DNA of 38,831 bases from Ruminiclostridium sp. Its GTDB lineage: Bacteria > Bacillota > Clostridia > Oscillospirales > Ruminococcaceae. The position numbers and the translations under genes are program-made. Under the pieces are notes generated by a model. That model saw only the letters and a list, made by a program, of their open reading frames with translations, was not told the DNA's origin and made no database searches. The stretch is taken from NCBI GenBank assembly GCA_017942025.1, contig JAGAVH010000043.1:1-38831 (forward strand), in the 5' to 3' direction. Positions 4,162 through 35,086 of this stretch are shown one piece after another (position 1 is the stretch's first letter; each line of letters starts with the position of its first letter).

Positions 4162-4650
4162 TCACTTCACAAGCTCAAGGACATTTATAACTTCTATCCC
4201 TTTACTTTCCGCCATTCGCACCGTCTGTCCCGTCCCGCTGCGAAAATCATTTATATTATAGTAGCATACACAGCAGTCAGCAAGCTCTACAAGCCTTGCA
4301 TTGCGTTTTTTCATACAGTCCTTTGTGTAATCGCTACCTATATATTCAATCGAATCTGCGTGCATAAGGATAGTATAGAAGATATGCTTGTCTTCATCGC
4401 TCCACTTTTTTGTCTGCTCCTCATTGCGGCAGGGTAAAACAAGATGAAGCCTGATATCAAGCTGCTTGCGTTTTTTCAGATAAAGCACCATATTAGCACA
4501 CATCGTATCCCAGCCAAGAGCACCGCCGCAATAAAAATCGGTAACTCCTTTCCTTACAAGGGCGCAGATTGTTTTATCAAGCAGGGTCTTCAGCTGAATG
4601 TTATCCGACTCGGTAATATTTCGGTGTCCGGTAAAACAAGCTGACGTCAT
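4162..4650 (-). CDS. SLOG-superfamily protein (DUF1273/YpsA-like)
   Basis: A 162-residue Rossmann-like protein. Hallmarks are FTGHR at 6-10, the glycine turn CGGALGWD at 41-48, KKRN at 114-117 and SGTGQTVRMA at 138-147. These match the SLOG/DprA-like nucleotide-binding fold of DUF1273 proteins such as B. subtilis YpsA. Such proteins are thought to bind nucleotide-derived ligands; YpsA has been linked to cell division and stress in Firmicutes, but the molecular role is not settled. AAAGGAGG lies at good spacing before the ATG. It follows the acpP terminator on the same strand and I see no clear promoter, so it may depend on read-through. Confidence 0.8.
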   Translation of the reverse strand: MTSACFTGHRNITESDNIQLKTLLDKTICALVRKGVTDFYCGGALGWDTMCANMVLYLKKRKQLDIRLHLVLPCRNEEQTKKWSDEDKHIFYTILMHADSIEYIGSDYTKDCMKKRNARLVELADCCVCYYNINDFRSGTGQTVRMAESKGIEVINVLELVK

Positions 4651-4675
4651 AATGACTTCCTCCTTTAAGTGCAGT

Positions 4676-4713
4676 TAAAAGAAAATAAGCCGTATCCGGT
4701 TTTGGATACGGCT
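4676..4713 (-). terminator. Terminator of acpP and the fatty acid cluster
   Basis: On the minus strand AGCCGTATCC (4713-4704) and GGATACGGCT (4697-4688) form a perfect 10-bp stem, followed by TATTTTCTTTT. Confidence 0.9.
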
Positions 4714-4740
4714 TTAATTTCAACTATTTGTTCCGACTAA

Positions 4741-4968
4741 TCAGGAATTTTCTTCGATGAACTTAACGATGTCGCCAACAGTCTTGATCTTTTCAACCTG
4801 ATCATCAGGGATTTCAAGATCGAACTCTTCTTCGAAGCTCATTACGAGGTCAACGATGTCTAAAGAGTCAGCGCCTAAATCTTCCTGAATGTTAGCTGCT
4901 TCTGTTACGTCCTTTTCATCTACGTCGAGCTGGTCAACGATGATTTCTTTTACTTTTTCGAATACCAT
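4741..4968 (-). CDS. acpP: Acyl carrier protein
   Basis: A 75-residue acidic helical protein that carries growing acyl chains on a 4'-phosphopantetheine arm during type II fatty acid synthesis. The attachment serine is S35 in [10 protein letters not shown] strong GGAGG precedes the ATG. It is the last gene of the cluster but has its own near-consensus promoter at 5018-5046, which fits the need for more acyl carrier protein than enzymes. In the Streptococcus-type fab cluster acpP lies between fabH and fabK, so its 3' placement here is a rearrangement. Confidence 0.97.
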
Positions 4969-5017
4969 TGTACTTTCCTCCGTTTTTTTAAAAAAGAATT
5001 GTTTTTTCTTATAAACT

Positions 5018-5046
5018 ATTATACGGCATTACGCCGAAATAATCAA
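5018..5046 (-). promoter_or_regulatory. acpP promoter with an imperfect palindrome in the spacer
   Basis: On the minus strand TTGATT (5046-5041), 17 bp, TATAAT (5023-5018). The spacer contains CGGCGTAATGCCG, an imperfect palindrome that could be an operator. It lies in the 190-base gap between accA and acpP. Confidence 0.75.
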
Positions 5047-5158
5047 GTCTGTTTTTCGCCAAATCTTAAATAAACTTGCACTAAAAAGACAGCGAAAATT
5101 CATCATTTTACACAAAACCGGAATTATGCAATACCTGTTACTGAAGAACGGTAAATTT

Positions 5159-5962
5159 TTATTCTTCTGTAAACATACCTATCTTTCTGAACTTCTGATA
5201 TCTGTTTTCAAGAAGGGTGTCGATGTCGATTTTTGTAAGTCTTCCGATAGCTTCAATAAGATAATCGGAGATATTTTCCGCTGTAGCAGAGGGGTCGTTA
5301 TGTGCACCGCCCACAGGCTCTGCTATTATCTTATCGCATACGCCGAATTCCACCAGATTCTCGGCTGTTATCTTCATAAGCTCTGCGGCTTCCTTTTCTC
5401 TTGCAGGGTCCTTCCAGAGAATCGATGCAAAGCCTCTTGGTGAAATTACCGAGTAGAGTGCATTTTCAAGCATTGCCAGCTCATCGCATACTGCAAGTGC
5501 CAGCGCACCGCCTGAACCGCCCTCGCCGAGAACCACTGATATAACGGGAGTTTTAAGAGTCATAAACTCTGCTATGTTCTTTGCGATAGCCTCTCCCTGA
5601 CCTCTTTTTTCCGCCTCTACTCCGCAGAATGCACCGGGAGTGTCCACAAGGCAGATAACGGGACGGTGGAATTTTTCCGCCTGCTTTGCAAGGCGTAAAG
5701 CCTTTCTGTAGCCCTCCGGATGAGGCATTGAGAAATTACTCTTCTTGTTTTCCTCTAAATTTCTGCCCTTTACCTGTGCGATAACCGTTACGGGTGTACC
5801 GTCTATAGTTGCAATACCGCTTAATATTGCCGCATCGTCACCGTAGAGTCTGTCACCGTGCAGCTCGGTAAAGTGATTGAAAATAGCAGGAATATAATCA
5901 TTTACAGTAGGCCTTGTTTTTTCTCTTATGATTTCAAGGCGCTGTGTTGCTGAAAGCGTCAT
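5159..5962 (-). CDS. accA: Acetyl-CoA carboxylase carboxyltransferase subunit alpha
   Basis: With AccD it forms the carboxyltransferase that moves CO2 from carboxybiotin to acetyl-CoA, giving malonyl-CoA. The crotonase-like fold is visible in ELHGDRLYGDD, VDTPGAFCGVEAEKRGQGEAI and GEGGSGGALALAV, with ISPRGFASILWKD near the C terminus. It has 267 residues, shorter than the ~319 of E. coli, mostly because the N-terminal segment is reduced, as in other Firmicutes. It starts 18 bases after accD and is the last of the tightly spaced acc/fab genes before acpP. Confidence 0.96.
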   Translation of the reverse strand: MTLSATQRLEIIREKTRPTVNDYIPAIFNHFTELHGDRLYGDDAAILSGIATIDGTPVTVIAQVKGRNLEENKKSNFSMPHPEGYRKALRLAKQAEKFHRPVICLVDTPGAFCGVEAEKRGQGEAIAKNIAEFMTLKTPVISVVLGEGGSGGALALAVCDELAMLENALYSVISPRGFASILWKDPAREKEAAELMKITAENLVEFGVCDKIIAEPVGGAHNDPSATAENISDYLIEAIGRLTKIDIDTLLENRYQKFRKIGMFTEE

Positions 5963-5980
5963 ATTCTCTTCCTTTCTTTA

Positions 5981-6868
5981 TCAGCCGTGCTGCCAGCTGT
6001 CGCTCTGTTTTTTATAGTTGTGAAGTCTTAAAATATTGGAAAGCGCCTTTCTCATACCCTTGCGCTCTACAATAGCGTCCACAAAGCCGCTCTGCAGTAA
6101 GAATTCTGCCGACTGGAAATCGTCGGGGAGCTTCTGCTTTATGGTATCCTGGATAACTCTTCTGCCTGCAAAGCCGATAAGTACCTTAGGCTCTGCCAGA
6201 ATAATATCTCCAAGGCTTGCAAAGGATGCTGTAACGCCTCCCGTTGTGGGATCGGTCATAACGGTGATATAAAGTCCGCCTGCATCGCTGTGGCGCTTTA
6301 CTGCGCCCGAGGTCTTTGCCATCTGCATAAGGGAAACTATACCCTCCTGCATTCTTGCACCGCCTGAGGCTGTAAATAGTATCACAGGGAGCTTATTTTC
6401 TGTGGCATACTCAAAGGCACGGGTAATCTTTTCACCCACTACACTACCCATACTCGCCATCATAAAGTTTGAATCCATAATGCCGATAACCGTCTTATAG
6501 CCTCTTATAGTGCAAACGCCTGTTGCAATGGCGTCGTTTATGTCGTTCGCTTCCTGAAGGCTCTTTATCTTCTTTTCGTATTCAGGGAAGCCGATGGGAT
6601 TCAAAGAATTCATCTTTTCGTCAAAGGGCTCGAAGCTGTCCTTATCCGCTGTAATTTCAAGTCTTTCCTTCCAGGAGAGTCTTGCGTGATAATTACAGGA
6701 GGGACAGGTCTTTCTGCGCTTTTCAAACTCGTCCATAAAGATAACGCTCTGGCATCTGGGACATTTGAAAAGCAGGTCCTTCGGAATTTCAGGTGCTTTT
6801 ACCTTTTCTGTTTCACTTTTTTCTGCATTGAAACGGTCTTTAACCGTTTTGAATAAATCTTCTAACAA
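5981..6868 (-). CDS. accD: Acetyl-CoA carboxylase carboxyltransferase subunit beta
   Basis: The partner of AccA in the carboxyltransferase half of acetyl-CoA carboxylase. The 295-residue protein has the family's N-terminal four-cysteine zinc ribbon (C36xxC39...C55xxC58), then the crotonase-like core with FTASGGARMQEG, TDPTTGGVTASFA and GFAGRRVIQDT. It lies 15 bases after accC and 18 before accA, in the usual accC-accD-accA order. AAAGGAGGTGC precedes the ATG. Confidence 0.97.
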   Translation of the reverse strand: MLEDLFKTVKDRFNAEKSETEKVKAPEIPKDLLFKCPRCQSVIFMDEFEKRRKTCPSCNYHARLSWKERLEITADKDSFEPFDEKMNSLNPIGFPEYEKKIKSLQEANDINDAIATGVCTIRGYKTVIGIMDSNFMMASMGSVVGEKITRAFEYATENKLPVILFTASGGARMQEGIVSLMQMAKTSGAVKRHSDAGGLYITVMTDPTTGGVTASFASLGDIILAEPKVLIGFAGRRVIQDTIKQKLPDDFQSAEFLLQSGFVDAIVERKGMRKALSNILRLHNYKKQSDSWQHG

Positions 6869-6883
6869 CGAAAAGCACCTCCT

Positions 6884-8227
6884 TTAAGTCAGATCCTTAC
6901 GACTTAAAAAGCCGATATCTACGTTTCCGCTTTCCACGTCTTCGTCACGAAGAAGGTTAAGCTGGAAATCTATATTAGTATTGATTCCCTCAATAAGAAA
7001 CTCGGATAAGGCTACCTTCATCTTCTGAATGGCTTCCTTTCTGTTTCTTCCCTTTACCAGTACCTTTGCTATCATACTGTCATAGTAGGGAGGGATTTCA
7101 TAGCCCTGATATACAGCGGTATCGATTCTTACCCCGAAGCCGCCAGGCATATGAATTGACTTTATCTTACCGGGGCAGGGACGGAAGTTGTTTTTAGGCT
7201 CTTCCGCATTGATACGGCATTCGATAACGTGGCCGTTTATTTTTATATCATCCTGAACGTATTCAAGAGGCTGTCCGTCGGCAATCTTTATCTGCGCCTT
7301 TACAAGGTCAACACCTGTAACCATTTCGGTTACTGGATGCTCTACCTGAATTCTCGCATTCATCTCCATAAAGTAGAAATTTCTGTCCTTGTCCACAAGG
7401 AATTCTACAGTACCTGCATTGGCATAGCCGCAGGCCTTTGCCGCTCTTACCGCCGCTTCGCCCATAGCCTTACGAAGCTCCTCCGTCATAATAGGACTGG
7501 GGCTTTCTTCAAGCACCTTCTGATTTCTTCTCTGGAGTGAGCAGTCACGCTCGCCAAGATAAATGACGTTGCCCTGCTCGTCGGCAAGAAGCTGTATTTC
7601 AACGTGACGGGGGTCTACAATAAACTTTTCGATATAGATATCATCGTTTGCAAAGAACTGCTTTGCCTCCTGCTTTGCGGCGGTTATAGCCGCCTCCAGC
7701 TCATCGGGAGTATCAACCCTTCTGATACCTCTGCCGCCACCGCCTGCACTCGCCTTTACCATTATGGGATAGCCAATCTTATCAGCAATCTCCTTTGCCT
7801 CTTCGATGCTTTCTATAACACCGTCAGAGCCGGGAACAACGGGTACGTTGTTTTCTATCATAGTCTTCTTGGCATTCGCCTTGTCGCCCATAGCGTCCAT
7901 AGCGTCGGCAGAAGGTCCGATGAATTTTATACCACACTTGTCGCACAGTCTTACAAACTGGCTGTTTTCGGATAAAAAGCCGAAACCGGGATGTATAGCC
8001 TCTGCGCCTGTTACCTCACAAGCGGCAAGAAGTGCCTTGCTATTCAGATAGCTGTCCTTTGATAAGGCAGGGCCTATGCAGATTGCTTCATCGGCAATCT
8101 GTGCGTGAAGGGCGGAACGATCGGCAGTTGAATACACCGCTACCGTCTTTACGCCAAGCTCACGGCAGGCTCTTATTATTCGTATAGCGATTTCGCCACG
8201 GTTTGCAATTAAAATCTTGTTAAACAT
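6884..8227 (-). CDS. accC: Acetyl-CoA carboxylase, biotin carboxylase subunit
   Basis: An ATP-dependent enzyme that carboxylates the biotin on AccB with bicarbonate. The 447 residues match the family. The N-terminal domain starts FNKILIANRGEIAIRIIRA. The ATP-grasp domain has K116, the glycine loop AGGGGRGIRR (161-170) and E275. The catalytic E288, N290 and R292 lie in FMEMNARIQVEHPVTEM at the same numbers as in E. coli AccC. It lies between fabZ and accD with short gaps. Confidence 0.97.
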   Translation of the reverse strand: MFNKILIANRGEIAIRIIRACRELGVKTVAVYSTADRSALHAQIADEAICIGPALSKDSYLNSKALLAACEVTGAEAIHPGFGFLSENSQFVRLCDKCGIKFIGPSADAMDAMGDKANAKKTMIENNVPVVPGSDGVIESIEEAKEIADKIGYPIMVKASAGGGGRGIRRVDTPDELEAAITAAKQEAKQFFANDDIYIEKFIVDPRHVEIQLLADEQGNVIYLGERDCSLQRRNQKVLEESPSPIMTEELRKAMGEAAVRAAKACGYANAGTVEFLVDKDRNFYFMEMNARIQVEHPVTEMVTGVDLVKAQIKIADGQPLEYVQDDIKINGHVIECRINAEEPKNNFRPCPGKIKSIHMPGGFGVRIDTAVYQGYEIPPYYDSMIAKVLVKGRNRKEAIQKMKVALSEFLIEGINTNIDFQLNLLRDEDVESGNVDIGFLSRKDLT

Positions 8228-8253
8228 TCAGGTTACCTTTCAGCTTTATGTAA

Positions 8254-8682
8254 TTATTTTAACGCAAAGGAAATTTCAGCGGAAACCGCCTTTTCTCCGT
8301 TTACTGTAGCAAGCGCCTTGCCAACACCTACGGGGCCCTTTATCTTGATTATCTCAACTTCAAGCTTTAAAAGATCTCCCGGAACTACCTGTCTGCGGAA
8401 TTTAGCTTCCTTGACGCCACCGAAAAAGCCTATCTTACCCTTGTTTTCAGGAAGGGAGAGCATTGCTACTGCGCCTGCCTGAGCAAGCATTTCAAGCATA
8501 AGTACACCGGGAACTACGGGGTAGTCGGGGAAATGTCCCTTGAACCAGAATTCGTCCTCGCTCATATACTTTGTAGCTACTACGCTGACGCCGGGTACCA
8601 TTTCTTCAATGGTATCGATGAGCATAAAGGGGTCTCTGTGGGGGATTATCTCCATTATCTGTTCTTTATTCATTAAAGGCAT
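8254..8682 (-). CDS. fabZ: 3-hydroxyacyl-ACP dehydratase FabZ
   Basis: Dehydrates 3-hydroxyacyl-ACP to trans-2-enoyl-ACP in each elongation cycle. The 142-residue hot-dog protein has HRDPFMLID (15-23) and the catalytic pair H50 (KGHFPDYPVVPGV) and E64 (LMLEMLAQAGA). It lies between accB and accC, as in Streptococcus- and Clostridium-type fab clusters. No FabM, FabN or FabA homologue is in view, so the source of unsaturated fatty acids cannot be told from this window. Confidence 0.96.
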   Translation of the reverse strand: MPLMNKEQIMEIIPHRDPFMLIDTIEEMVPGVSVVATKYMSEDEFWFKGHFPDYPVVPGVLMLEMLAQAGAVAMLSLPENKGKIGFFGGVKEAKFRRQVVPGDLLKLEVEIIKIKGPVGVGKALATVNGEKAVSAEISFALK

Positions 8683-8698
8683 AATCTTTATTCCTTTC

Positions 8699-9166
8699 TC
8701 AGGAGAGTAAAATGATGGGCTGACCGAATTCTACCGCTTCGCCGTCCTTTACAGCAATAGCTGTAACAACGCCTGACTTATCAGCAAGTACCTCGTTCAT
8801 AACCTTCATACTTTCAACGATGCATACTACGTCGCCTTCGTTAACGCTGTCGCCCACCTTTACAAAGGGAGCCTTATCAGGTGCAGGAGCAGCGTAGAAT
8901 GTGCCTACGATGGGACTTGTGATGCTCTTGCCTGCTGTGGGAGCAGCTTCAGCTGCCGCTTGTGTAGTAGTGGGAGCAGCCTGCATACCCATAGCCATAG
9001 GAGGCATAACGGGCATAGGAGGAAGGGGACGGGGCTCGGGGTACTTCTGTCCCAGCTCCAATTCAAATTTATCGTTCTTTACGCTTATATAACCGAGTCC
9101 GCTTTCCTTCATCACTCCGATGAGTTCCTTTACTGCGGATATAAGCTCGTTCTTTTCAAACTGCAT
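8699..9166 (-). CDS. accB: Biotin carboxyl carrier protein of acetyl-CoA carboxylase
   Basis: Carries biotin between AccC and AccA/AccD. The 155 residues comprise an N-terminal helical domain (about 1-40), a Pro/Ala/Met-rich flexible linker (about 42-80) and a biotinyl/lipoyl domain. The biotinylated lysine is K121 in VESMKVMNEV. The usual motif is EAMKM, so Ala-to-Ser and Met-to-Val changes flank the lysine. ESMK variants occur in other biotin proteins, so function is probably kept. It sits 27 bases after fabF and 16 before fabZ. Confidence 0.96.
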   Translation of the reverse strand: MQFEKNELISAVKELIGVMKESGLGYISVKNDKFELELGQKYPEPRPLPPMPVMPPMAMGMQAAPTTTQAAAEAAPTAGKSITSPIVGTFYAAPAPDKAPFVKVGDSVNEGDVVCIVESMKVMNEVLADKSGVVTAIAVKDGEAVEFGQPIILLS

Positions 9167-9193
9167 TTCATTGTTTCCTTTCAGTTGTGTAAA

Positions 9194-10429
9194 TCAGTCC
9201 TCAACGGGTGCAAAGGCTACGCAGGCATTGTGGCCGCCGAAGCCTAAGGAGTTGCTGAGCGCACCTGTTATCTTCATCTTTCTGGGTGCGTCGGGTACGT
9301 AGTCGAGATCGCATTCGGGGTCGGCTGTCTTGTAGCCGAGCGTCTGATGAACTGTCTGATTCTTTATCTGTAAAGCAGTAGCAACCGCCTCAACACCGCC
9401 TGCCGCACCTAAAAGGTGACCTGTCATGGACTTGGTGGAGTTTATTGCGATATTCTTTGCGTGGTCGCCGAAGCATATCTTGATTGCCGCTGTTTCTGTT
9501 TTATCGTTCATAGGTGTTGATGTGCCGTGAGCATTGATATAGTTGAAGGTATCAGCATTTCTGCCTGATTCTGCTACTGCAAATTCCATAGCCTTTGCAC
9601 CGCCTCTGCCCTCAGGGTCGGGGCTGGTTTCGTGGTAGGCGTCGCAGGTTGCACCGTAGCCGATTACTTCTGCATAGATTTTAGCGCCTCTTGCCTTTGC
9701 GTGCTCGTATTCTTCTAAAATTACAATACCGCATCCATCGCCTAAAACAAAGCCGTTTCTTTCTGCGTCAAAGGGAATACTTGCCTTGTCGGGGTCTGTA
9801 GACCTTGTTACAGCGTGCATATTGTTGAAGCCTGCGTATGCAAAGCCGATAGACGCCTTTTCTGTACCGCCTGCAATAGCGCAGTCCATATAGCCGTGCT
9901 TTATTGCGTGGAAGGCTTCACCAATGGCGTGTGTGCCGCTGGCGCAGGCTGATACTGCACAGAAGTTTGCACCCTTGAAGCCGGTTTTGATAGCAACGGT
10001 ACCTGCAGGCATATTGCCTATCATCTTGGGGATTGTGAATACGGAAACTCTCTTGTTGCCCTTGTTGTGATATGCAAGAAGCTCTTCCTGAGTTGTTTCA
10101 ATACCACCGATACCGCTACCGATAAGAACACCGCATCTGAAGGGATCGAGGTCGCTGAAATCTGTACCTGCGTCTTCGATTGCCTTCTTTGCCGCATATA
10201 CGGCATACTGGGTGATTATATCTGTACGGCGAAGCTCCTTCTTATCAAAGTATTCTTCTGCACTGAAGTCCTTTACAAGCGCCTTTACGTTCTTTTCTTC
10301 GGTCTGACCGGGAAACCACTCTTCAAGTGTGAAGCCGTGCTTACCTGCCATAAGGCTGTCCCAGAATTCTTCTACTGTGTTACCGATGGGGCTTACTACT
10401 CCAAGACCTGTTATAACTACTCTGCTCAT
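9194..10429 (-). CDS. fabF: 3-oxoacyl-ACP synthase II
   Basis: Condenses malonyl-ACP with acyl-ACP to elongate the chain. I chose the ATG at 10429 (411 residues, MSRVVITGLGVVSP) because GAGG lies 9 bases upstream; an in-frame GTG at 10444 lacks a ribosome site. Catalytic residues are C162 (VSACASGTH), H301 (NAHGTSTPMND) and H338 (KSMTGHLLGAAGG), a typical KAS II Cys-His-His set. It starts 20 bases after the fabG stop and is followed by accB. Confidence 0.96.
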   Translation of the reverse strand: MSRVVITGLGVVSPIGNTVEEFWDSLMAGKHGFTLEEWFPGQTEEKNVKALVKDFSAEEYFDKKELRRTDIITQYAVYAAKKAIEDAGTDFSDLDPFRCGVLIGSGIGGIETTQEELLAYHNKGNKRVSVFTIPKMIGNMPAGTVAIKTGFKGANFCAVSACASGTHAIGEAFHAIKHGYMDCAIAGGTEKASIGFAYAGFNNMHAVTRSTDPDKASIPFDAERNGFVLGDGCGIVILEEYEHAKARGAKIYAEVIGYGATCDAYHETSPDPEGRGGAKAMEFAVAESGRNADTFNYINAHGTSTPMNDKTETAAIKICFGDHAKNIAINSTKSMTGHLLGAAGGVEAVATALQIKNQTVHQTLGYKTADPECDLDYVPDAPRKMKITGALSNSLGFGGHNACVAFAPVED

Positions 10430-11216: not shown

Positions 11217-13103
11217 TTATTTTGCCTTCTTTTTGTGTATAAGTGCCGCTGAAGCTACGCCTAAGCTCAGTACAGCACAGATAAATCCGCTTGTCTTTAC
11301 ACCTGTCGGAGGGTTGGTTCCGTCAATATCCGGCTCTTCATCCTTGTCGGGCTCTTCATCCTTGTCGGGTTCTTCATCAGGTGTGGTTGTATCTCCGGGG
11401 GCAGGCTCTGTATCAGGCTCGTCGTCCTCGGGTATATCGGTGGATTCGCCGGGTGTGGGTTCCTGCTCAGGCTTACGTACATATGCCTTTATAGAATGGT
11501 TGTCACAATCTCTGTAATCAACCAGTGCGCCAAGAATATGGACAAGTATTCCGTCGCCCTCGTCCTCTGTTGCCCAGTCGTGCCATGCATCATCGTACAT
11601 AACAAAGCTTTCGCCTTCATTTACTACAGCCTTACCGTATAAGGGCATTTCTATTCCGTTTGCCACCGCAAACTCATAATACGCCTGGTTTTCTATCAGC
11701 TTTACCGGAAGAACTGCGGTGTAAACGTCGGTATGCTGATGGATAACGATAGAAACAAGCTTGCCTTCGGGAATGAAATATTCTTCACCGAGAGATACAC
11801 GATGGAAGCCGGGATAATCAAAGGTGTAGGAGCGCTCGCAGATAAGCTCTCCATCCTCGGGATTCTCATATCCATTGTCAAGAAGATAAATGCTTACGTC
11901 AGTTACTGTATTAAGATTATTTGTTTCAAAGGATACCTCAAAAAGATTTACATCCTCTTTAGGGTTGAATACATTTGCATATCTGATAGCAGAGCCGTCG
12001 TTAAAGCCCATTGAGCTTTTAGCGCTGAATGAAGGCAGATAATCGTATGCAAGTATGCCTGTAGCGGTATCGGTTGATTCTACATCGAAATCAAAGGTTT
12101 CGAGATTGGTAATAGTTCTGTCATAATATGAAAGGTAGAAATAACCGGAACCCTCATAACCCCAGTCACGGTAGTTGGGATTGTCCTTGTCATAATCGGT
12201 GCAGCCCCAGCTGTTCTTTACTATCCATGCACCGTCACCCTCGGGCTGAGGTACGCTTACGGGATTTCCTTCATCGTCAGTGATTTCGGAAAGGAAGTTT
12301 TCCTTGGGATAGTTGTCATCCCAGCCTATGATGGTAACACCGTGGTTTACGCCTACCTTTTCATATGTAAAATGCGCCCAGGTATCTGTATTTATATACC
12401 GTGCATTTTTTTCCGTCTGACCGGGCAGGTAAGAATCCGCACAGAAGGATATGGATATGCCATGTCCTGCCATAAGCTCTGCCTTCAGGTCTTCAAGTGC
12501 CTGTGCGTCAAACACATAATTTCCGTCCTGATCGTAGGTAGCCGTACTCGGAAGAACGTTACTGTTCTGGAGTACGTAGTTGTAGTAGGAGCGAAGCTCC
12601 TCGTCTACTGACCAGTCAGCGTTCGGAGATCTGGAAGGATTTCCGTTTTCATCTATGCCGTTATAGGGTACTGTCTGTTCATAAAGAGGTCCTATATTCG
12701 TGCCGTAGAGGGAGGTTGCAAGATACTGCGTAGCACCTGTCATCTGTTGACCGCTCATATTGTATATACCCTCGCCTGCCTGTGAATGACCGCTGTCCTC
12801 GGGGATGGGATTCAGCGAAAACCATGCCAGATGACGTTCTGAAAGGTCAAGGGGATATTCCTCATAGGTATATCCGAGCTCTGAAAGAATACTTGTTTCT
12901 ACTGATGCAATAGCCGAAAAGCTCCAGCAGGTGCCCCAGGGGTCCTGATTCTTTACGGGAGTTACGTAGCCGTAATCTCTCAGGTCGTATTTTTCGGGAA
13001 GAGTCTGAGCTTCTTCCGCATATGCGTTTGTTGTTACTGTAAGTGCCGCTAAGAATGTTGCCAGAGAACCACTGATGATTCTTTTTAAAGATGTCTTTTT
13101 CAT
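11217..13103 (-). CDS. Secreted papain-family (C1) cysteine protease with a cell-wall anchor
   Basis: A 628-residue surface protease. It has a signal peptide (about 1-29, cleavage near NAYA-EE) and a C1 catalytic domain beginning LPEKYDLRDYGYVTPVKNQ. The oxyanion Q53, catalytic C59 (GTCWSFS), H254 (GVNHGVTIIGWDD) and N297 (IVKNSWG) are all present. A beta-rich accessory region (about 340-530) follows. The tail is a Pro/Asp/Glu-rich stalk with DEEPDK repeats, then NPPTG, a hydrophobic stretch and KKK, a sortase-type anchor of the NPxTG class. AAAGGAATT precedes the ATG. Family members degrade extracellular protein. Its place inside a fatty acid operon has no obvious metabolic reason. Confidence 0.9.
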   Translation of the reverse strand: MKKTSLKRIISGSLATFLAALTVTTNAYAEEAQTLPEKYDLRDYGYVTPVKNQDPWGTCWSFSAIASVETSILSELGYTYEEYPLDLSERHLAWFSLNPIPEDSGHSQAGEGIYNMSGQQMTGATQYLATSLYGTNIGPLYEQTVPYNGIDENGNPSRSPNADWSVDEELRSYYNYVLQNSNVLPSTATYDQDGNYVFDAQALEDLKAELMAGHGISISFCADSYLPGQTEKNARYINTDTWAHFTYEKVGVNHGVTIIGWDDNYPKENFLSEITDDEGNPVSVPQPEGDGAWIVKNSWGCTDYDKDNPNYRDWGYEGSGYFYLSYYDRTITNLETFDFDVESTDTATGILAYDYLPSFSAKSSMGFNDGSAIRYANVFNPKEDVNLFEVSFETNNLNTVTDVSIYLLDNGYENPEDGELICERSYTFDYPGFHRVSLGEEYFIPEGKLVSIVIHQHTDVYTAVLPVKLIENQAYYEFAVANGIEMPLYGKAVVNEGESFVMYDDAWHDWATEDEGDGILVHILGALVDYRDCDNHSIKAYVRKPEQEPTPGESTDIPEDDEPDTEPAPGDTTTPDEEPDKDEEPDKDEEPDIDGTNPPTGVKTSGFICAVLSLGVASAALIHKKKAK

Positions 13104-23703: not shown

Positions 23704-23900
23704 AAATAATCGGTCGGTGACCGATTATTTCAGTGATATCGTGCCGTTGGCACGGTGATATCAAAGCCTTCGGCTTTGGTGATATTCCGACTTCGTCGGA
23801 GTGATATATCGTGCTTTGCACGATGTTGTGGAAATCATATGTTGACAAAATCTTTGATTTTGTCAACTGCCGTAGTTATTGCCATAGGCAATAACTACTC
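23704..23900 (+). repeat. Modular hairpin array C, downstream of degV
   Basis: It starts at the degV stop with the 12-bp stem AAATAATCGGTC/GACCGATTATTT (23704-23730). CGTGCC/GGCACG (23740-23754), AAAGCC/GGCTTT (23763-23777), CCGAC/GTCGG (23787-23799) and CGTGC/GCACG (23810-23822) follow, with GTGATAT linkers. GTTGTGGAAATC comes next, then two longer stems, GTTGACAAAATC/GATTTTGTCAAC (23841-23867) and TAGTTATTGCC/GGCAATAACTA (23873-23897). The three middle-to-last small modules match array B almost base for base. Confidence 0.9.
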
Positions 23901-26962: not shown

Positions 26963-28852
26963 TCACCATGTCGGTATAAAGTCTTCGCCTCTACCGGGCT
27001 TGTGACCGCCGCCACCGCCGAAGCCGTTTCCGCTACCACCGTAAAGGAGTGTATCAAGTGTAATCTGCTGATTCTGTCCGCCGTATTTCAGAGTGTAGGT
27101 ACCGCCGACCTCCATACCGGGAGCAGATATTACTATTATCTGATATTTCATTTCTGAAACGTATGACGCCAACACCTTGCCTGTGCTGTCCTCCAGGCTT
27201 ATCTCATCACCTGCATTGCCGTTTGCATTTATCATAATAACGCCCTGGGTAGAGGTATTGGAAAAGCTCTGTGCCATACCGTTACTACCTGCGGCAATAA
27301 ATATACCGCCTGTAATTGTGGCGTTTCCGCCGTAGTCGAGAGAGCCGTTGCCGCCATTCTCGGGACCGCTTACATATACCTCGCCGCCTGAAATGGTGAT
27401 ATTTCCGTTACTGTCTACTCCGTCGCCTCTGGCGATTACCTGAAGCTTACCGCCTGTAATGGTAATGCCTGCATTAGGATCATTTTCCATACCGCCGCCA
27501 GGTCTGAAGCCGCCGCCGAAGTTATCAGGATCGAAGTTGCCTCCCATACCCGAGCCGTCGTTGCCGCCTGCCGCATTGAGTCCGTCATCGCCGGTTACTA
27601 CTCTTGTGTCGCCGCCTGAAATGGTTATGGTAAGACCCTCAATACCCTCGTAGCAGTCGGTTCCGTTTATAGTACCGCCCGAAATATTTACTGCAAGATC
27701 GCTGTGTACAGCGTCGTCGCCGGTCTTTATTTCTATAGTGCCGCCTGATACATTGACATCAGCCGCCCCGTGAATTGCATCGTCAAGGCAGTTCATATTT
27801 ATATTGCCGCCGCTGATGGTTATAACTCCGTCAGCCTTTATGCCCTTGCAGGAATCCTGACTCGCACTCTTATCTGCGCCGCCGCCTGATGTAATATCCA
27901 GTGTGCCGCCCTTGATATCTATCTTGCCTGATGCGTCGATAGAATCGGTGGTGCTGTTGAGCTTTATATTACCGCCTGCGATATAGATATAGCCTTTTGA
28001 GGTGTCCTCTGTATTTTCGCTATGGAGAGCGTCCTTGCCGCTGTTTACGGTAATGTTGCCCCCTGCTATTCTTATACTGTCGTTACCTGAAAGTCCACGC
28101 TTTGCACCGCTTATTTCATAACTGCCGCCTGCAATCTTCAGATTGTCCTTGGAGATTACACCGTGAGCTGTTTCACAGTCTACTTTAAGACTGCCTGCAC
28201 CGTTCAGCACAACGTCAGATTTTGAGAATATCGTGCCGTCTACGTTATCTTCAGTCACACCAAAATCGCCCTTTGATGAAAGACTGTTCTGTGTGCCCTC
28301 CTTTGTAGTAACGAATACCTTGTCGGCAGTCTTTACCTGAATTGCCGCACCGCCGTTTTTGGTTATATTTACATTGTCAAGAACTATCTGAACCTTGTCA
28401 TTGCTACCTGCCGCAACTATTATCTGACCGTCGGAAAGGCTTCCCTTAAAGAGATACACGCCCTCTCTTGCGATGGTGACTGTGTTTCCGTTTACCGCAA
28501 CGCCGTTTGCGGTAGTCTTTATATTGTTATCCGCAAGCTCTACTGTGAGTGCGCCCTCGTAGGTGCTTCTCATATCTCTTTCGGTAAACATTCCGTCAGC
28601 TATTACATCTACGGCAGGAGAGCTGTCGTTGGAAGGTGTATTGCTTTCGGGGGTACTGCTTTCAGTATTGCTTTCGGTAGTACTTGTTTCTGTACTGCTG
28701 TCTGTGTTGCTGTCCTTGCTTTCTGTTTCGGTCACACTACTCTGTGTGGTATCTGAGCCTGTGGGCAGACTTACGTTATCTCCGCCGCAGGCGGTAAGGG
28801 AGGACAGCATAAGTGCTGTTATTATTGCCGCTGTCAGTATCTTTCTTTTCAT
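26963..28852 (-). CDS. Beta-helix lipoprotein, carbohydrate-binding (Cthe_2159-like)
   Basis: A secreted lipoprotein of 629 residues when started at the ATG at 28852 (AAAGGAAAG upstream). The signal peptide ends in LTAC with lipidated C22. A Ser/Thr/Glu-rich linker (about 25-85) precedes a long right-handed beta-helix-like region. Repeats of the type ITISGGxI, DAIHG, DDAVHS and GIEG are spaced about 20-25 residues apart. This matches the family of Clostridium thermocellum Cthe_2159, which binds cellulose and acidic sugars. A Gly/Pro/Asn-rich insert and a Gly-rich C terminus are present. It is last in an operon with DUF4956 and VTC-domain genes, 13 bases after DUF4956. Confidence 0.85.
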   Translation of the reverse strand: MKRKILTAAIITALMLSSLTACGGDNVSLPTGSDTTQSSVTETESKDSNTDSSTETSTTESNTESSTPESNTPSNDSSPAVDVIADGMFTERDMRSTYEGALTVELADNNIKTTANGVAVNGNTVTIAREGVYLFKGSLSDGQIIVAAGSNDKVQIVLDNVNITKNGGAAIQVKTADKVFVTTKEGTQNSLSSKGDFGVTEDNVDGTIFSKSDVVLNGAGSLKVDCETAHGVISKDNLKIAGGSYEISGAKRGLSGNDSIRIAGGNITVNSGKDALHSENTEDTSKGYIYIAGGNIKLNSTTDSIDASGKIDIKGGTLDITSGGGADKSASQDSCKGIKADGVITISGGNINMNCLDDAIHGAADVNVSGGTIEIKTGDDAVHSDLAVNISGGTINGTDCYEGIEGLTITISGGDTRVVTGDDGLNAAGGNDGSGMGGNFDPDNFGGGFRPGGGMENDPNAGITITGGKLQVIARGDGVDSNGNITISGGEVYVSGPENGGNGSLDYGGNATITGGIFIAAGSNGMAQSFSNTSTQGVIMINANGNAGDEISLEDSTGKVLASYVSEMKYQIIVISAPGMEVGGTYTLKYGGQNQQITLDTLLYGGSGNGFGGGGGHKPGRGEDFIPTW

Positions 28853-28865
28853 CAGCTTTCCTTTC

Positions 28866-29558
28866 TTACAGAAGCTCTCTGCTATCTGCATTCATAGACA
28901 TAAGATTTACCTCAAGATTTCCGTTACGGCATCTGAGCTCGTCAATAAACTGCTTTTCCTCACCTGATTTTTTAAGTGTTATGTTATATGTAAGTCTGTT
29001 TAAGCTACCGAGGTTTGTAGTCTTTACCTGGGACAGCTCGTGCTTTGTTGTGTACTTTTCAAAAAGATCGTCGAACATACTGTTATATTCTAAATCCTCG
29101 GGTACTGTGATACGAAGTACCTTGCGCAGAGTGGAATTCTTACCCTCGCCGAAGCCGATGGCATTGAGCAGTAAGAAAGCGCCGCCTACTACTACAACGA
29201 ATAAAAGTCCGTAGATGGGATAACCCATACCGCATACAAGACCTACCGCCATAGCAAGGAAGATAACGCCTATCTCCTTTGCTGTACCGGGGATACTACG
29301 GAAGCGTACAAGTGAGAAGGTACCTGCCGCCGCAACGCCGGCACCGAGAGAGCCGCTTACCATCATAATAACTATAGCTACAACCGCAGGAAGTATGGCA
29401 AGAGTTACCACAAAGCTCTTTGTATAAACGGATTTGAACATATAGATAAGTGCCAGCACTACGCCAAGTCCTAAGGCGCTTGCCACACCTATAAGGAAGT
29501 TCGGTACAGATATAGTACCCAGTCCCGTTGTAAATAATGCGTTAAATAACTCGTCCAT
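28866..29558 (-). CDS. DUF4956 membrane protein
   Basis: A 230-residue protein with about four to five transmembrane helices in the first 130 residues. A conserved, charged turn FSLVRFRSIPGTAKEIG lies between helices, and a soluble C-terminal domain of about 95 residues follows. This matches DUF4956, whose biochemical role is not established. GAGG precedes the ATG. Its start overlaps the VTC gene by 17 bases, so the two are translationally coupled. DUF4956 and VTC proteins are often encoded together, which suggests a shared membrane complex. Confidence 0.88.
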   Translation of the reverse strand: MDELFNALFTTGLGTISVPNFLIGVASALGLGVVLALIYMFKSVYTKSFVVTLAILPAVVAIVIMMVSGSLGAGVAAAGTFSLVRFRSIPGTAKEIGVIFLAMAVGLVCGMGYPIYGLLFVVVVGGAFLLLNAIGFGEGKNSTLRKVLRITVPEDLEYNSMFDDLFEKYTTKHELSQVKTTNLGSLNRLTYNITLKKSGEEKQFIDELRCRNGNLEVNLMSMNADSRELL

Positions 29559-30267
29559 TGCAAAGTCCTCGTCTTTCTGTTAATTCGTCTTTAAGTATTG
29601 ATGTGTAGGCGTTGCCGTACTTTGAAAAGCTCGACCTTTTAACGCCCGATTTATTGATTATATCCACAAGCCATAGCGGCATTGCCGTACCTGATTTTAT
29701 CTCCATCAGCGACTGACCTTCCTTTAAAATGTCGGTGCCGTAATGGTCATGCCTTAAATCAAGCTCTTCTCTTCGCCAGAGAATATTTCTGTCGAAGGTG
29801 ATTCTAAGATCCCTGTCGGTAGCGGAAAAATATGCTGTTCTGTCATAGCACAGATAAACTCTCGGTTTTAAGGTCTCGTAGTATTTTATAAAATACTTTA
29901 TCTCTCTGCCTATCTGGGTATCTTCCTTTAAATCGGTCTTGCCCTCCATAAAGTCTACCGCATCCTTGCAGGGCAGAGAAATTCTCCTCTTGTACACTAC
30001 CCCGTCGTATTTCTTTTTAAGCTCTAAAAATACCGTTTTGTCATCTGCGGACTTTCCGTAGCTTCGTAGTCTTAATTTTTCCTTATACATCGGCTTTTCT
30101 ATCGAGCGGCGGATAAGTCTGTAGTTATCGGTATCATAGTAGATGTTACATATGGTACTTTCACCGTATTCGTCAGGCGTCATATATTCACATATCGCCC
30201 TTTCGATATATTCTCTTTGCTCGGCTGTAATGAGATATTTAAGCTCGTGCCGTTTGAAAATATTCAC
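29542..30267 (-). CDS. VTC domain-containing protein (polyphosphate polymerase-like)
   Basis: A 241-residue soluble protein of the VTC/triphosphate-tunnel type. It starts with a GTG at 30267 behind GGGAGG. The N terminus FKRHELKYLITAEQ and the basic tunnel residues in EKLRLRSYG, FLELKKKYDGVVYKRR and YDRTAYF are typical, with the acidic end LMEIKSG. In yeast the VTC domain makes polyphosphate from ATP. Bacterial forms beside DUF4956 and cell-surface genes are mostly uncharacterised. It is the first gene of the three-gene operon. Confidence 0.88.
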   Translation of the reverse strand: MNIFKRHELKYLITAEQREYIERAICEYMTPDEYGESTICNIYYDTDNYRLIRRSIEKPMYKEKLRLRSYGKSADDKTVFLELKKKYDGVVYKRRISLPCKDAVDFMEGKTDLKEDTQIGREIKYFIKYYETLKPRVYLCYDRTAYFSATDRDLRITFDRNILWRREELDLRHDHYGTDILKEGQSLMEIKSGTAMPLWLVDIINKSGVKRSSFSKYGNAYTSILKDELTERRGLCNGRVI

Positions 30268-30533: not shown

Positions 30534-30541
30534 GCCGATAT
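30534..30541 (+). promoter_or_regulatory. SigD (sigma-28)-type -10 element for the flagellin operon
   Basis: GCCGATAT matches the SigD/FliA -10 consensus exactly, 38 bases before the zinc-ribbon start. The -35 TAAA is not clear at the expected distance (TTCA or TACT instead). A sigma-A-like TATAAT at 30550-30555 lies just downstream without a good -35. Confidence 0.6.
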
Positions 30542-30578: not shown

Positions 30579-30959
30579 ATGGGACAGATTGTAAGGGTTA
30601 GCTGTGAAAAATGTGACAAAAGCGAAGAGCTTTATATAGGCGGCGGCTTTTCAGACTGCAATTTCGAAACCGTCATATCGGGTATGAGCAACCTGCAGAA
30701 GGATAATCTGTGGGAGGCAAAGCATCTGGGCGCTGTGCGATTCAGCATAAACAGAGTCCCTTGTATATGTCAGTCCTGCAACAGCTTTTATACAGCAAAT
30801 AAAGTAAGCTATATTCTTGAAGGAGAAAAGAAGATTATATGGAGCAGATGCCCCTCCTGCAGCTCCTTTAAGAAAAAGATAATAAGCACCGATAACAAGT
30901 CGGTATGTACCGTATGTGGACAGCCGATAAAGGTAGAAGAAATCGGCCTGTGGGATTAA
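30579..30959 (+). CDS. Small multi-cysteine zinc-ribbon protein
   Basis: A 126-residue protein of unknown function. Its cysteines form C9xxC12, C62xC64xxC67, C91xxC94 and C110xxC113, enough for two zinc sites. There is no signal peptide, so it is probably cytoplasmic. AAGGAG precedes the ATG. It sits 26 bases before the flagellin gene on the same strand and behind the SigD-type -10. It may assist or control expression of that flagellin; this is inference from position only. I do not recognise the family. Confidence 0.75.
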   Translation: MGQIVRVSCEKCDKSEELYIGGGFSDCNFETVISGMSNLQKDNLWEAKHLGAVRFSINRVPCICQSCNSFYTANKVSYILEGEKKIIWSRCPSCSSFKKKIISTDNKSVCTVCGQPIKVEEIGLWD

Positions 30960-30985: not shown

Positions 30986-33900
30986 ATGCGACTTGACAGT
31001 CTTTCGTCGGTAAAGGCGAATAATTCGATAAAAAAGACAAACTTCAGGGTTTGTAAAAATACAGAAAAGCTTGCAAGCGGGTTACAGATAAACAAAAGTG
31101 CTGATAACGCCGCAGGCCTTGCTATTTCTGAAAAGATGCGCTCTATTATTCGTGGCCTCAATCAGTCCCACGATAACACAAACGAGGGTATCGACCTTGT
31201 AAACGTAGGCGAGGGTGCATTGGGCGAGGTACATAGCATCCTGCAACGAATCAGGGAAATGGCGGTGCAGTCTGCCAACGCCACTTATATGGACGAGGTG
31301 GACAGAGAAGCTTTACAGTCCGAGCTGGACGCTCTGCGCTATGAGGTTGACAGAATTGCGGGCTCAACCGAATTCAACGGAATAAAGCTCTTTCAGGATG
31401 AGGGCTATGATTCCGAATATGAGCTTACGGGATACTGGAGCAGATTCAACACCATGTTTGACGACATATACAGCAGTACAAGGTATATGGAAACACCTCT
31501 GCAGACCTTACTCAGTCAGACAAAGCCCGGCGAAACCAATATTATATATACCGAAATTATACACGATTTTACCACTACGCAACAGCCTGACGGCAGTAAC
31601 AGCTTTACAGGAACAGACAAGACTCTGGCGGACACGCTCAAGGCGTCAATAGTGCCGAACGTAGTAAGCAGTATTGTGTCCCGCTATCCTGCCTTCAGCT
31701 ATCTCAACGGTACAAATCTCGGTATCGGTCTTAATCTGTACAGCGACGCGTCAAGCAGCACTCTGGCATATGTACGTGCAGGCGCGGGAATAAGCGCAGG
31801 TACAGGCTTTAAACATTATCAGCTGGCGGTTAATACAGCAAAGGTTGATTTGTCCACAGAAGCAGGCAGAAGCGACCTTGAACGTACAATAGCCCACGAA
31901 ATGGTACACGCCTTTATGGACGAGGCGATGGCTTCGGGTATGTTCGGCGTTGCCGACGACGGCGCTTCTGTAACACGTTTTCCTATGTGGTTTATTGAGG
32001 GTATGGCGCAGACGGCTTCAGGCCCCGGCAACTGGGTAGAATACGGTCTCGGACTGGACGAAAGCTCCACAGCCGCTGATATATCTGCGGCTCTGGCTCA
32101 GTCAGACGCCAGACTTTCTCTCAGCGCTTCGTCTACCCTGGCACAGTACGGCACAGGCTATCTTGCCTCTATGTATCTTGGCTATAAGGCATACACCTCC
32201 GACGGCGGAACGGTAAATATGGACAGTCCCTCTTTATCGGCTTCTGCTATATCGACCGGCGTTTCAAGGATACTTTTCGATATTACCGCAGGCAATTCTT
32301 TAAGCGATACTATAGCAAAATATACAGACTACGCTTCTCTGAGCGATTTTGAATCAGGCTTTGCAAACGATGATGATGTAATACAGTTCATTCAGGAGCT
32401 TCTGAAATATACCGCAGACGGAAAGGGCGGACTTATAAGTGGCGACCTTGCCGATACAAACCCCGTACCCAATAACGATCTGACAGGAATAAAGCTGTTT
32501 GAGCTGAACCCCGACAATCAGACGGTAAAGAACTTTTACCCCGATGATGTAAATATTTTTTCAGGCGGCTCCGCTATAGACGGCGGCGTACCGCCGATAG
32601 ATTCGCTGGATCCTCCCGACGAGGACGTTCCGACGATTATGTATCCTATCGACATATTTACGGTAACCGGCGGTACAGAAGGCGTAGACTGGAAATTTGA
32701 TACGGCTACGGGCGTTCTTAATATCCTGACCGGCACCGATATGACCATTTCAGGCGGCTCAAAGGACGGCACATATTTCGGCAGGATAGTAATTGCCGAC
32801 AATATCGGAGATGTAAATATTACTCTTGACGAAGTAAATATTGATATGACAATGGAGGATGGCACTCACTCGGGTATCTATACAGGTGACGGAAACAATG
32901 TAAATCTTACCCTTAAAGACGGCAGTACCTCTACCGTAATGGGCGGCGGAAGAGCCGCAGGTATTCAGCTTTCAGAGGGTGGAGCAGGCACAACTCTTGT
33001 CATAAACGGCAACGGCGAACTGAATGCTCACGGTGGAAGCGAAAGCTTTTACGGCGGTGCCGCTATCGGAAACAGCTACGGTAAGGGTGGCTATGGCAAT
33101 AACATTATCATAAACAGCGGAACAATAAACGCCGAAGGCGGATATGGTGCGGCGGCTATAGGTGCCGCAGAAAGAAGTAACCTCGGCGATATAACCATAA
33201 ACGGCGGCGATATTACAGCCGTTGCCGACCATCACGGCGCAGGTATCGGCGGTGGCTGGACCCCGTCAAATATAGGCAACATCACCATAACAGGCGGCAA
33301 CATACTTGCCTCAGGCGTAGAGCACGGCACAGGTATCGGCGGCGGCTGTCGTGGTACAGTAGGCGATATCACCATAAGCGGTGACGATACCGTAGTTGTT
33401 GCGCTGGGCGGTCACGAAGGTGCGGCTATCGGTGCCAGCTGGGAAGGAAAAGCAGGTACCATCACCATAGACGGTGGCACAGTAACCGCTACAGGCGGCA
33501 GAAAGGGCGCAGGTATAGGCTCAGGTCTGGACGCAACCGGAGGAGATATTATAATAAACGGCGGTACTGTTACCGCTACCGGCGCAACCGACGCCGCAGG
33601 TATAGGCAGTGGACGTGGTGCGTCAAATACAGGAATATACATAAACGGCGGAACAGTAACCGCTACAGGTGGTCTGACCAACGGCGGCGGTAATATAGGC
33701 GCGTATCTGCCTCAGGCAGACAAAAGTGCTCCGCCGGAGGCGGCGCCTCTTGAGATAGCTCCCGGTCTTACGATAAAGGCAGGCGAAAGCGGCGAAGGTC
33801 TTTACAATACAACGGGTGCGGTTTCACCCGACGGAACACCTATATTCAGCTTCAAGCTGGATTCGTCACTTCTTCCCGACGGCTTCACCTTCCCCGTATC

Positions 33901-34594
33901 TGCTCAGACAACCACAGGTATGAGCTTTAGCTGGGATGCTCTGAAGCATATGGACGAGGACGCCGTATATATCTGGATGAACGGCGAGGATCATATTCTC
34001 GAAGTAACCGACGCAAACGGCAATACAGCTACTCTCGACCTTGTATTCCATCCCGGCGCAGGCGTATGGAAATTAAGAGGCGAGCCTGCACCTCCCGATG
34101 CAGAAAAGCCCGAATACTCTGACGGTGTTGTGCCCCCCGACTATCCCGGAAAGCCTGTCCCGAATCCTGTTCCCGAAAAAGAACAGTCGGCAGCATGCAA
34201 GGGAATAATACTGCAGATAGGCGCATACAGCGAAAATATATTTGTGGTGCCTCAGTTCTATTTCTCGGCAAAAGCGCTGAAAATGGGAGAACTGGATATT
34301 TCCACCCGTCCTGCCGCAAACGATACTATTGATAAGGTTGACGGAATGGTAAAGAGAGTGTCGATGATGCGCAGTACCTACGGAGCTATCACCAACTGTC
34401 TTGAACATACCGTAAGCAATCTTGTGAATACGGCAGAAAATACAACCGCCTCAGAAAGCCAGATAAGAGATACCGATATGGCGACTGAGATGGTTGAATA
34501 TACTAAAAACAACATACTGGCGCAGGCAAGCCAGGCGATACTTGCCCAGACCAACGGCAATATGTCAAAGCTGCTGAGCATTATACAGCAATAG
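30986..34594 (+). CDS. Giant proteolytic flagellin (flagellinolysin-like) with a beta-helix module
   Basis: A 1202-residue flagellin. The N-terminal D0/D1 (about 1-145) has KLASGLQINKSADNAAGLAI and GEGALGEVHSILQRIREMAV. The C-terminal D1/D0 (about 1085-1202) has GIILQIGAY, AIDK-like TIDKVDGMV and NILAQASQAILAQTNG. The variable region holds a metalloprotease of about 370 residues with H304-E-M-V-H308 and E338 (MWFIEGMAQ), the zinc ligands and catalytic Glu305 of a gluzincin. A Gly-rich region (about 555-915) follows, with repeats such as ITINGGTVTATGG...GAGIGGG about 28-30 residues apart, predicted to be a beta-helix. An Ig-like part and a Pro-rich stalk (about 1040-1078) come next. There is no signal peptide, as expected for flagellar export. 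Proteolytic flagellins are known from Clostridium haemolyticum and relatives; the beta-helix addition is unusual. Confidence 0.92.
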   Translation: MRLDSLSSVKANNSIKKTNFRVCKNTEKLASGLQINKSADNAAGLAISEKMRSIIRGLNQSHDNTNEGIDLVNVGEGALGEVHSILQRIREMAVQSANATYMDEVDREALQSELDALRYEVDRIAGSTEFNGIKLFQDEGYDSEYELTGYWSRFNTMFDDIYSSTRYMETPLQTLLSQTKPGETNIIYTEIIHDFTTTQQPDGSNSFTGTDKTLADTLKASIVPNVVSSIVSRYPAFSYLNGTNLGIGLNLYSDASSSTLAYVRAGAGISAGTGFKHYQLAVNTAKVDLSTEAGRSDLERTIAHEMVHAFMDEAMASGMFGVADDGASVTRFPMWFIEGMAQTASGPGNWVEYGLGLDESSTAADISAALAQSDARLSLSASSTLAQYGTGYLASMYLGYKAYTSDGGTVNMDSPSLSASAISTGVSRILFDITAGNSLSDTIAKYTDYASLSDFESGFANDDDVIQFIQELLKYTADGKGGLISGDLADTNPVPNNDLTGIKLFELNPDNQTVKNFYPDDVNIFSGGSAIDGGVPPIDSLDPPDEDVPTIMYPIDIFTVTGGTEGVDWKFDTATGVLNILTGTDMTISGGSKDGTYFGRIVIADNIGDVNITLDEVNIDMTMEDGTHSGIYTGDGNNVNLTLKDGSTSTVMGGGRAAGIQLSEGGAGTTLVINGNGELNAHGGSESFYGGAAIGNSYGKGGYGNNIIINSGTINAEGGYGAAAIGAAERSNLGDITINGGDITAVADHHGAGIGGGWTPSNIGNITITGGNILASGVEHGTGIGGGCRGTVGDITISGDDTVVVALGGHEGAAIGASWEGKAGTITIDGGTVTATGGRKGAGIGSGLDATGGDIIINGGTVTATGATDAAGIGSGRGASNTGIYINGGTVTATGGLTNGGGNIGAYLPQADKSAPPEAAPLEIAPGLTIKAGESGEGLYNTTGAVSPDGTPIFSFKLDSSLLPDGFTFPVSAQTTTGMSFSWDALKHMDEDAVYIWMNGEDHILEVTDANGNTATLDLVFHPGAGVWKLRGEPAPPDAEKPEYSDGVVPPDYPGKPVPNPVPEKEQSAACKGIILQIGAYSENIFVVPQFYFSAKALKMGELDISTRPAANDTIDKVDGMVKRVSMMRSTYGAITNCLEHTVSNLVNTAENTTASESQIRDTDMATEMVEYTKNNILAQASQAILAQTNGNMSKLLSIIQQ

Positions 34595-35086
34595 CGGTCG
34601 GTGACCGCTGACAATTCCGCCTGCGGTCGGTGACCGCTGACGGTTCCGCCTTTAAATATGTTTGTGGTCGGCGTAACCTCGTGGACGGCGGTTTCACATA
34701 TTGGTTGCGTCTCAAAGCCTTCTCCCTCGGGAGAAGGTGTCACCGCAGGTGACGGATGAGGGGAAAATAATAAATTGAAATTTGTCGGCGGGTTGCACCA
34801 TCAAAAATGCGGTAATTTATGCGGGGCGTCGGGGACGTCGCCCCTACATTTTCCCTATAAATTCTTGAGGTAATTCAAAATAATAAAAGGCTCGCAATCT
34901 CCGTATTACACGGGGCTTGGGGCGAAGCCCCAAACAAGGTCGCAGGGGCGGTAGCCCCCGATTTTTCCCCCTTTCCTCAGGGGAAAGGGGGTTAGGGGGA
35001 TTGGGGCTACAATAACCCGAGCGGAGCGACAAATTGTAGTTTTGCGGTCGGTGACCGCCGACAATTTTACCATTACATATAAACAG
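34595..35086. repeat. Non-coding repeat block downstream of the flagellin gene
   Basis: No gene is seen. The hairpin GCGGTC/GACCGC with a GGT loop occurs three times (near 34595, 34624 and 35044), the first abutting the flagellin stop. 34648-34708 is the second copy of the 61-base element at 2372-2432. CTTCTCCCTCGGGAGAAGG followed by GTCACCGCAGGTGAC is a common repeat type in gut Clostridia. 34945-35042 is an inverted copy of the element at 2439-2540. Confidence 0.8.

Follow-up and report, generated by a model that had tools for sequence, protein, structure and literature searches.

The 38,831-nucleotide contig JAGAVH010000043.1 of Ruminiclostridium sp. (assembly GCA_017942025.1), hereafter the window, encodes a flagellinolysin, i.e., a flagellin with a built-in metalloprotease, in a new variant that combines a predicted Cthe_2159-like beta-helix module within the subunit with a conserved zinc-ribbon gene next to it. 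This description draws on computation: the architecture, the active-site residues and the predicted folds, together with conservation within a clade, gene partnership, a promoter-like element and the presence of FlhA in the genome. The gene (30986..34594, forward strand, as are all its parts described below) is a complete open reading frame for a protein of 1202 residues and 125 kDa.

Protease flagellin and its central insertion

The N-terminal flagellin region (D0/D1; 31004..31399, residues 7-138) matches Flagellin_N (PF00669, E 1e-34), and the C-terminal region (34202..34591, residues 1073-1202) includes a Flagellin_C match at residues 1115-1198 (PF00700, E 1.1e-19). Both flagellin domains thus flank the enzyme domain, as the definition of flagellinolysins (Eckhard et al. 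2017) asks. The insertion between them covers about 930 residues (141-1072), close to the ~940 claimed in an earlier note made from this DNA alone. It opens with a gluzincin-type metallopeptidase domain (31406..32575, residues about 141-530; modelled part 149-530), residues 208-496 of which align with the NCBIfam flagellinolysin model NF033876 (whole-protein E 2.6e-50). The score of 172 bits lies below the 205-bit whole-protein cut-off of NCBI, which is a database naming threshold and not a defining biological feature; none of the 60 genomes searched contained a match above it. Flagellin ends with an NF033876 match inside bear out the flagellinolysin layout proposed in the earlier note.

The zinc motif HEMVH (31895..31909, residues 304-308) and the predicted third zinc ligand E338 (31997..31999), part of WFIEGMAQ (335-342), stand exactly where that note had placed them and fall within helices 144-166 and 186-197 of the model. 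With H304, E305, H308, E338 and A341 present, the protein has the HExxH motif, the distal zinc-binding glutamate and the alanine three residues on that characterise flagellinolysins. HEMVH and E338 are identical in all 14 sequences of our alignment (A9, window included), but this conservation is partly built in, because one or the other motif was part of the patterns that retrieved 13 of the 14. The assignment to gluzincins is supported by the active-site residues and by the predicted fold, which appears related to the collagenase peptidase domain. A sequence search of the PDB gave no clear relative of the protease (best E 0.11). The domain is expected to be proteolytically active.

The protease is followed by a parallel beta-helix (32657..33667, residues about 558-894), an immunoglobulin-like (Ig-like) beta domain (33749..34075, residues about 922-1030) and a Pro-rich linker (34076..34201, residues about 1031-1072), the latter delimited from sequence; the predicted local distance difference test score (pLDDT) of the model is below 50 for the last 28 residues. 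The term Ig-like is kept from the earlier note and refers to a part of the model that is all beta, with strands within 392-500, not to a fold search of that block. Beta_helix_3 (PF18889) matches six stretches of the window flagellin (E 4.5e-10). The solved fold nearest to the helix model is Cthe_2159 (PDB 4phb, 4peu), 3.7 Z units ahead of the next one, and the module is predicted to be a parallel beta-helix of the same build as this protein (PF14262). By sequence it does not qualify as a member of PF14262 (E 0.34; 10.6 bits vs. 25.8 needed), and the PDB sequence search found no clear relative of the beta-helix either (best E 0.25). Celluloses and polygalacturonic acid are the reported ligands of the Cthe_2159 family (PMC6712302; here and below, papers are cited for the parts available). 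The mucin binding suggested in the earlier note has no support in this analysis; the modelled helix may instead bind polysaccharides, with plant cell wall polymers likelier than mucin.

Elsewhere in the genus, related helices belong to proteins other than flagellins, and several of these proteins have signal-like N termini (partial frames). No beta-helix was seen in flagellins lacking a protease among 30 loci scanned: the 22 with helix motifs comprise four protease flagellins and 18 frames (partial) without a flagellin motif.

Complete modules were found in four of 71 genus genomes at E <1e-238, the window's own counted; the three others encode the same layout in 1202-1216 residues, with 66, 75, and 74% identity to the window protein over the full length. 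In all 30 comparisons among these four orthologues (five regions by six pairs; dS saturated in six) pN was lower than pS, and the beta-helix showed a nonsynonymous divergence (dN) of 0.19-0.28 against a synonymous one (dS) of 0.98-1.95.

The protease profile matched seven of the 71 genus genomes, namely five protease flagellins, a secreted relative in G090 and a weak match in G031 (E 7.8e-4), in a frame that on visual inspection seems unrelated. At the order level three of 394 genomes matched (the window's own, G136 with a secreted relative, and G372), and at the class level ten of 393: the window's own, six with flagellin-embedded proteases (G472, G528, G604, G635, G643, and G815) and three (G670, G754, G790) in which the N terminus is signal-like and a flagellin part is absent. 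The protease-domain relatives at loci L080 (G136), L091 (G090), L174, and L176 likewise have signal-like N termini and no flagellin part. In named genomes, 341 pattern stretches yielded 168 relatives, and the patterns may miss further ones; among the best 80 of the 168, 13 loci (L093-L105) reached E 4e-39 or better, the other 67 being short and at E 2e-7 or weaker. The records L093, L094, L095, and L104 correspond to G072, G074, G004, and G006, respectively. Goat colon, roe deer colon and rectum, and water deer cecum are the sources given in the record titles of L093-L097.

Further helix modules occur in L096 (1238 residues), L097 (1931 residues, three helix blocks) and L102 (1162 residues); the PF18889 cut-off is reached in L097 and L102 and not in L096, whose module is 40% identical to that of the window. 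None is present in L099, L100, L101, L103, L104, and L105, and L098 is cut. The window groups with L093-L097 in a clade (support 95/92) of a tree built from 22 protease domains, which gives L102 no supported placement. Taken together with the occurrence of the helix, this points to a probable single gain of the module in this clade and perhaps another in L102.

Several loci deserve separate mention. The L097 flagellinolysin (4488-10280), from water deer cecum, carries besides its helix blocks a repetitive stalk rich in asparagine, aspartate and glycine. L198 (3436-6129, G372) contains an 897-residue open frame resembling a decayed helix flagellinolysin, with a faint flagellin N part (E 1.1e-5), a protease tail without HExxH and a retained helix start; the G372 genome holds FlhA and other flagellins. 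In G004, a serine recombinase-like gene, recognised by eye, immediately follows the 3' end of the flagellinolysin gene on the opposite strand (L032:7042-8547, forward). A mobile origin was considered and found unsupported: neither the protease nor the zinc-ribbon protein had a plasmid match, and no relative was among 20 pattern stretches for the protease in viral contigs.

Zinc-ribbon partner gene and promoter-like element

The zinc-ribbon gene and the promoter-like element were absent from the earlier note and are added here. The gene (30579..30959, forward strand) codes for 126 residues with four CxxC pairs, which suggest two zinc ribbons, and a C-terminal WD; it sits 26 bases upstream of the flagellin reading frame. 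It is probably the first gene of a two-gene unit with the flagellin, and the two would be transcribed together.

A profile built from five zinc-ribbon proteins matched five of the 71 genus genomes, exactly those with a protease flagellin; since the same five proteins went into the profile, it is the lack of a match in the other 66 that is informative. We counted 19 loci with flagellin-embedded proteases (window, L093-L097, L099-L105, L175, L177-L181), leaving out L098, whose frame has no flagellin part. The zinc-ribbon gene lies directly upstream in 11 of them (window, L093-L097, L102, L104, L105, L175, and L177), and the L175 and L177 proteins were matched, among the frames of the loci examined, by a profile made without them (E 1e-21 and 1.7e-32). 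In L178-L180 a CxxC protein of 101-106 residues is encoded directly downstream; its E of only 0.014-0.33 leaves it, by sequence, a possible divergent form, and a class search with the close zinc-ribbon family did not pick up these genomes. The gene was not found in the local DNA of the remaining five loci (L099, L100, L101, partly N, L103, and L181), nor in about 1.5 kb of flank beside each of the secreted relatives L080, L091, L174, L176, and L182. L177 (2440-2808, G643) retains it next to a flagellin whose protease is reduced to its front part, the C-terminal part being lost.

The search of the class, limited to scoring 11 candidates per genome, gave matches to the zinc-ribbon profile at E 1e-3 in 20 of 393 genomes. 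The three strong matches (5e-37 or better) all adjoin a flagellin and were all already in the profile. Ten of the 17 weaker ones (L185-L192, L195, L196) had no flagellin within about 1.5 kb per side, which places the protein in a wider zinc-ribbon family; a PDB search with the profile returned generic zinc-finger proteins only (best 5.3e-5). Identities of the zinc-ribbon protein and the protease correlate over 10 loci (r 0.83; 0 of 5000 permutations). Since the correlation with the flagellin N part is even higher (r 0.93, nine loci), shared ancestry accounts for it as well as interaction does. A tree of the zinc-ribbon proteins had long branches and one starred fork of 11 and was not used.

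A sigma-28 (FliA/sigma-D)-type -10 element, GCCGATAT, is located upstream of the zinc-ribbon gene (30534..30541, forward strand), with a weak -35 in the window. The corresponding regions of 10 loci (L175 left out) were scanned with the sigma-28 consensus, allowing TAAA, CTAA or TTAA as the -35 element and spacers of 13-17. Sites of this type were found in five of the 10, with an exact -10 in L093, L094, and L097 and one mismatch in L095 and L104, while 1-5.5% of shuffled sequences yielded a site with at most one mismatch. L177 has a site with two mismatches, and the strict scan gave nothing in the window, L096, L102, and L105. CGATATAA is invariant in six chosen aligned loci, i.e., the five scan matches and the window. 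Taken alone the window site is not significant, as it has two mismatches to the full consensus and 10 such matches occur in the window vs. 4.76 expected.

Farther upstream, on the reverse strand, lie genes for a Cthe_2159 carbohydrate-binding-type protein (26963-28891; PF14262, E 1e-84), a DUF4956 protein (28866-29558) and a VTC-domain protein (29542-30267). The same trio precedes the zinc-ribbon gene in L073 (= L094) and L074 (= L093); the G004 contig ends about 1 kb upstream, so the trio cannot be judged there. Derivation of the flagellin helix from the adjoining Cthe_2159 gene was dropped as an explanation, their similarity being only weak and at the repeat level (hhalign probability 88 over 122 columns, BLASTP E 0.004). 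The window also contains two copies of Gut-1 RNA (RF01706; 55-130, reverse, and 23731-23812, forward) and a gene for a papain-like C1 peptidase with a Lectin_like domain (11217-13103, reverse). The palindrome GGTCGGTGACCGC adjoins the second Gut-1 copy with one mismatch, and three more follow the flagellin gene (34596-35058).

Proposed function and alternative explanations

We favour, with somewhat better than even confidence, a flagellinolysin variant that works as follows. The flagellin gene would be transcribed with the zinc-ribbon gene as a late flagellar unit, and the 125-kDa subunit would leave through the flagellar export apparatus; FlhA is encoded in the window's own genome and in all seven further genomes checked. 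Its conserved ends would let the subunit co-polymerise, probably as a minor component, so that the filament displays on every copy a zinc gluzincin protease, a Cthe_2159-like beta-helix and an Ig-like domain. The latter two may hold polysaccharide, confining proteolysis to the bound surface, and the zinc-ribbon protein would stay in the cytoplasm and keep the protease inactive or unfolded until export. The keeper role is suggested by linkage to flagellin-embedded but not secreted proteases (few cases) and by a flagellinolysin reported to cut flagellin and itself (PMC7643111). More tentatively, we picture a ruminant-hindgut flagellum that grips plant-fibre polysaccharide while its proteases cut, with the zinc-ribbon protein as export chaperone or inhibitor.

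Thousands of protease copies per filament, as the earlier note had it, are not supported in that form. Other flagellins coexist in G004 and G074, and the flagellinolysin share in filaments of C. haemolyticum goes up to 10% (PMC5595980), so a minor subunit is likelier. The window's own genome and G072 have no Flagellin_N match besides the protease flagellin. We do not claim it as the sole flagellin of the cell, since these assemblies are 83% and 90% complete and also lack the weaker third or fourth Flagellin_N match of G004, G074, and G006 (frames of 332-602 residues, FlgL-like by guess).

The strongest competing view concerns the partner gene. Zinc ribbons commonly bind nucleic acid, the Pfam matches of the protein are generic zinc ribbons and its diverged relatives are located elsewhere, so it might be an unrelated nucleic-acid-binding regulator merely sharing the operon. 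We give this a somewhat less than even chance, as strong matches were seen only beside flagellin genes (neighbours of this kind had supplied the profiles) and the five secreted protease relatives showed none next to them. Less probably, the beta-helix and Ig-like parts are a stiff spacer without ligand that thickens the filament or distances the protease from neighbouring subunits. Enzyme-free giant flagellins build thick filaments (PMC6248924), shielding could help a flagellin whose D0/D1 regions a flagellinolysin cleaves in vitro (PMC7643111), and the three helix blocks and stalk of L097 would fit; the closest fold, by the margin given above, is nevertheless a polysaccharide-binding protein, and the occurrence of related helices in non-flagellin proteins of the genus also argues against a mere spacer. 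Export through the flagellum followed mostly by release as a soluble protease-binder, raised for flagellinolysins in PMC7643111, appears improbable, because neither flagellin end is damaged and the four orthologues conserve both. Metagenome misassembly, chimera or chance can practically be dismissed: although L093-L095 are metagenome bins and the window's assembly consists of 80 contigs, four assemblies share the layout in co-linear orthologues, each with the same zinc-ribbon neighbour, and three of these assemblies are named and stem from different animals or sites.

The biological role of flagellinolysins was described as unclear (PMC7643111), and no dedicated control is named in the available parts of the flagellinolysin literature examined. 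The addition of a binding-type module in one clade hints at a substrate bound to a surface, which makes the role testable. A further question, raised by the zinc-ribbon gene, is how a flagellin-attacking protease is restrained inside the cell before export; a zinc-ribbon chaperone or inhibitor, if real, would be an undescribed answer to exporting a protease filament subunit without self-digestion.

Comparison with known systems

No description of a protease flagellin combined with a helix module and a zinc-ribbon gene was found in the literature, seen mostly as titles and abstract openings. The likeness to Cthe_2159 (PF14262) is one of predicted fold, the window helix being without a significant match to this Pfam model and embedded in a flagellin. 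Giant flagellins (Thomson 2018, PMC6248924) also exceed 1000 residues and have a large central insertion but, unlike the window protein, are described there without similarity to enzyme domains. EtpA of enterotoxigenic E. coli is a separate protein binding flagellar tips, and the available text mentions no protease part. Closest are the flagellinolysins FliA(H) of C. haemolyticum and HgrFlaMP of Hylemonella gracilis (PMC5595980, PMC7643111), in which flagellin ends likewise surround a gluzincin inserted centrally, with HExxH, the distal glutamate and an alanine three residues on. In the hypervariable region of these two, the characterised members of the 2017 set, only the protease is described, which agrees with the earlier view of the beta-helix and Ig-like module as foreign to the flagellinolysin layout. 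The window protein adds about 540 residues (helix, Ig-like domain and linker) and differs from both in being preceded by a zinc-ribbon gene.
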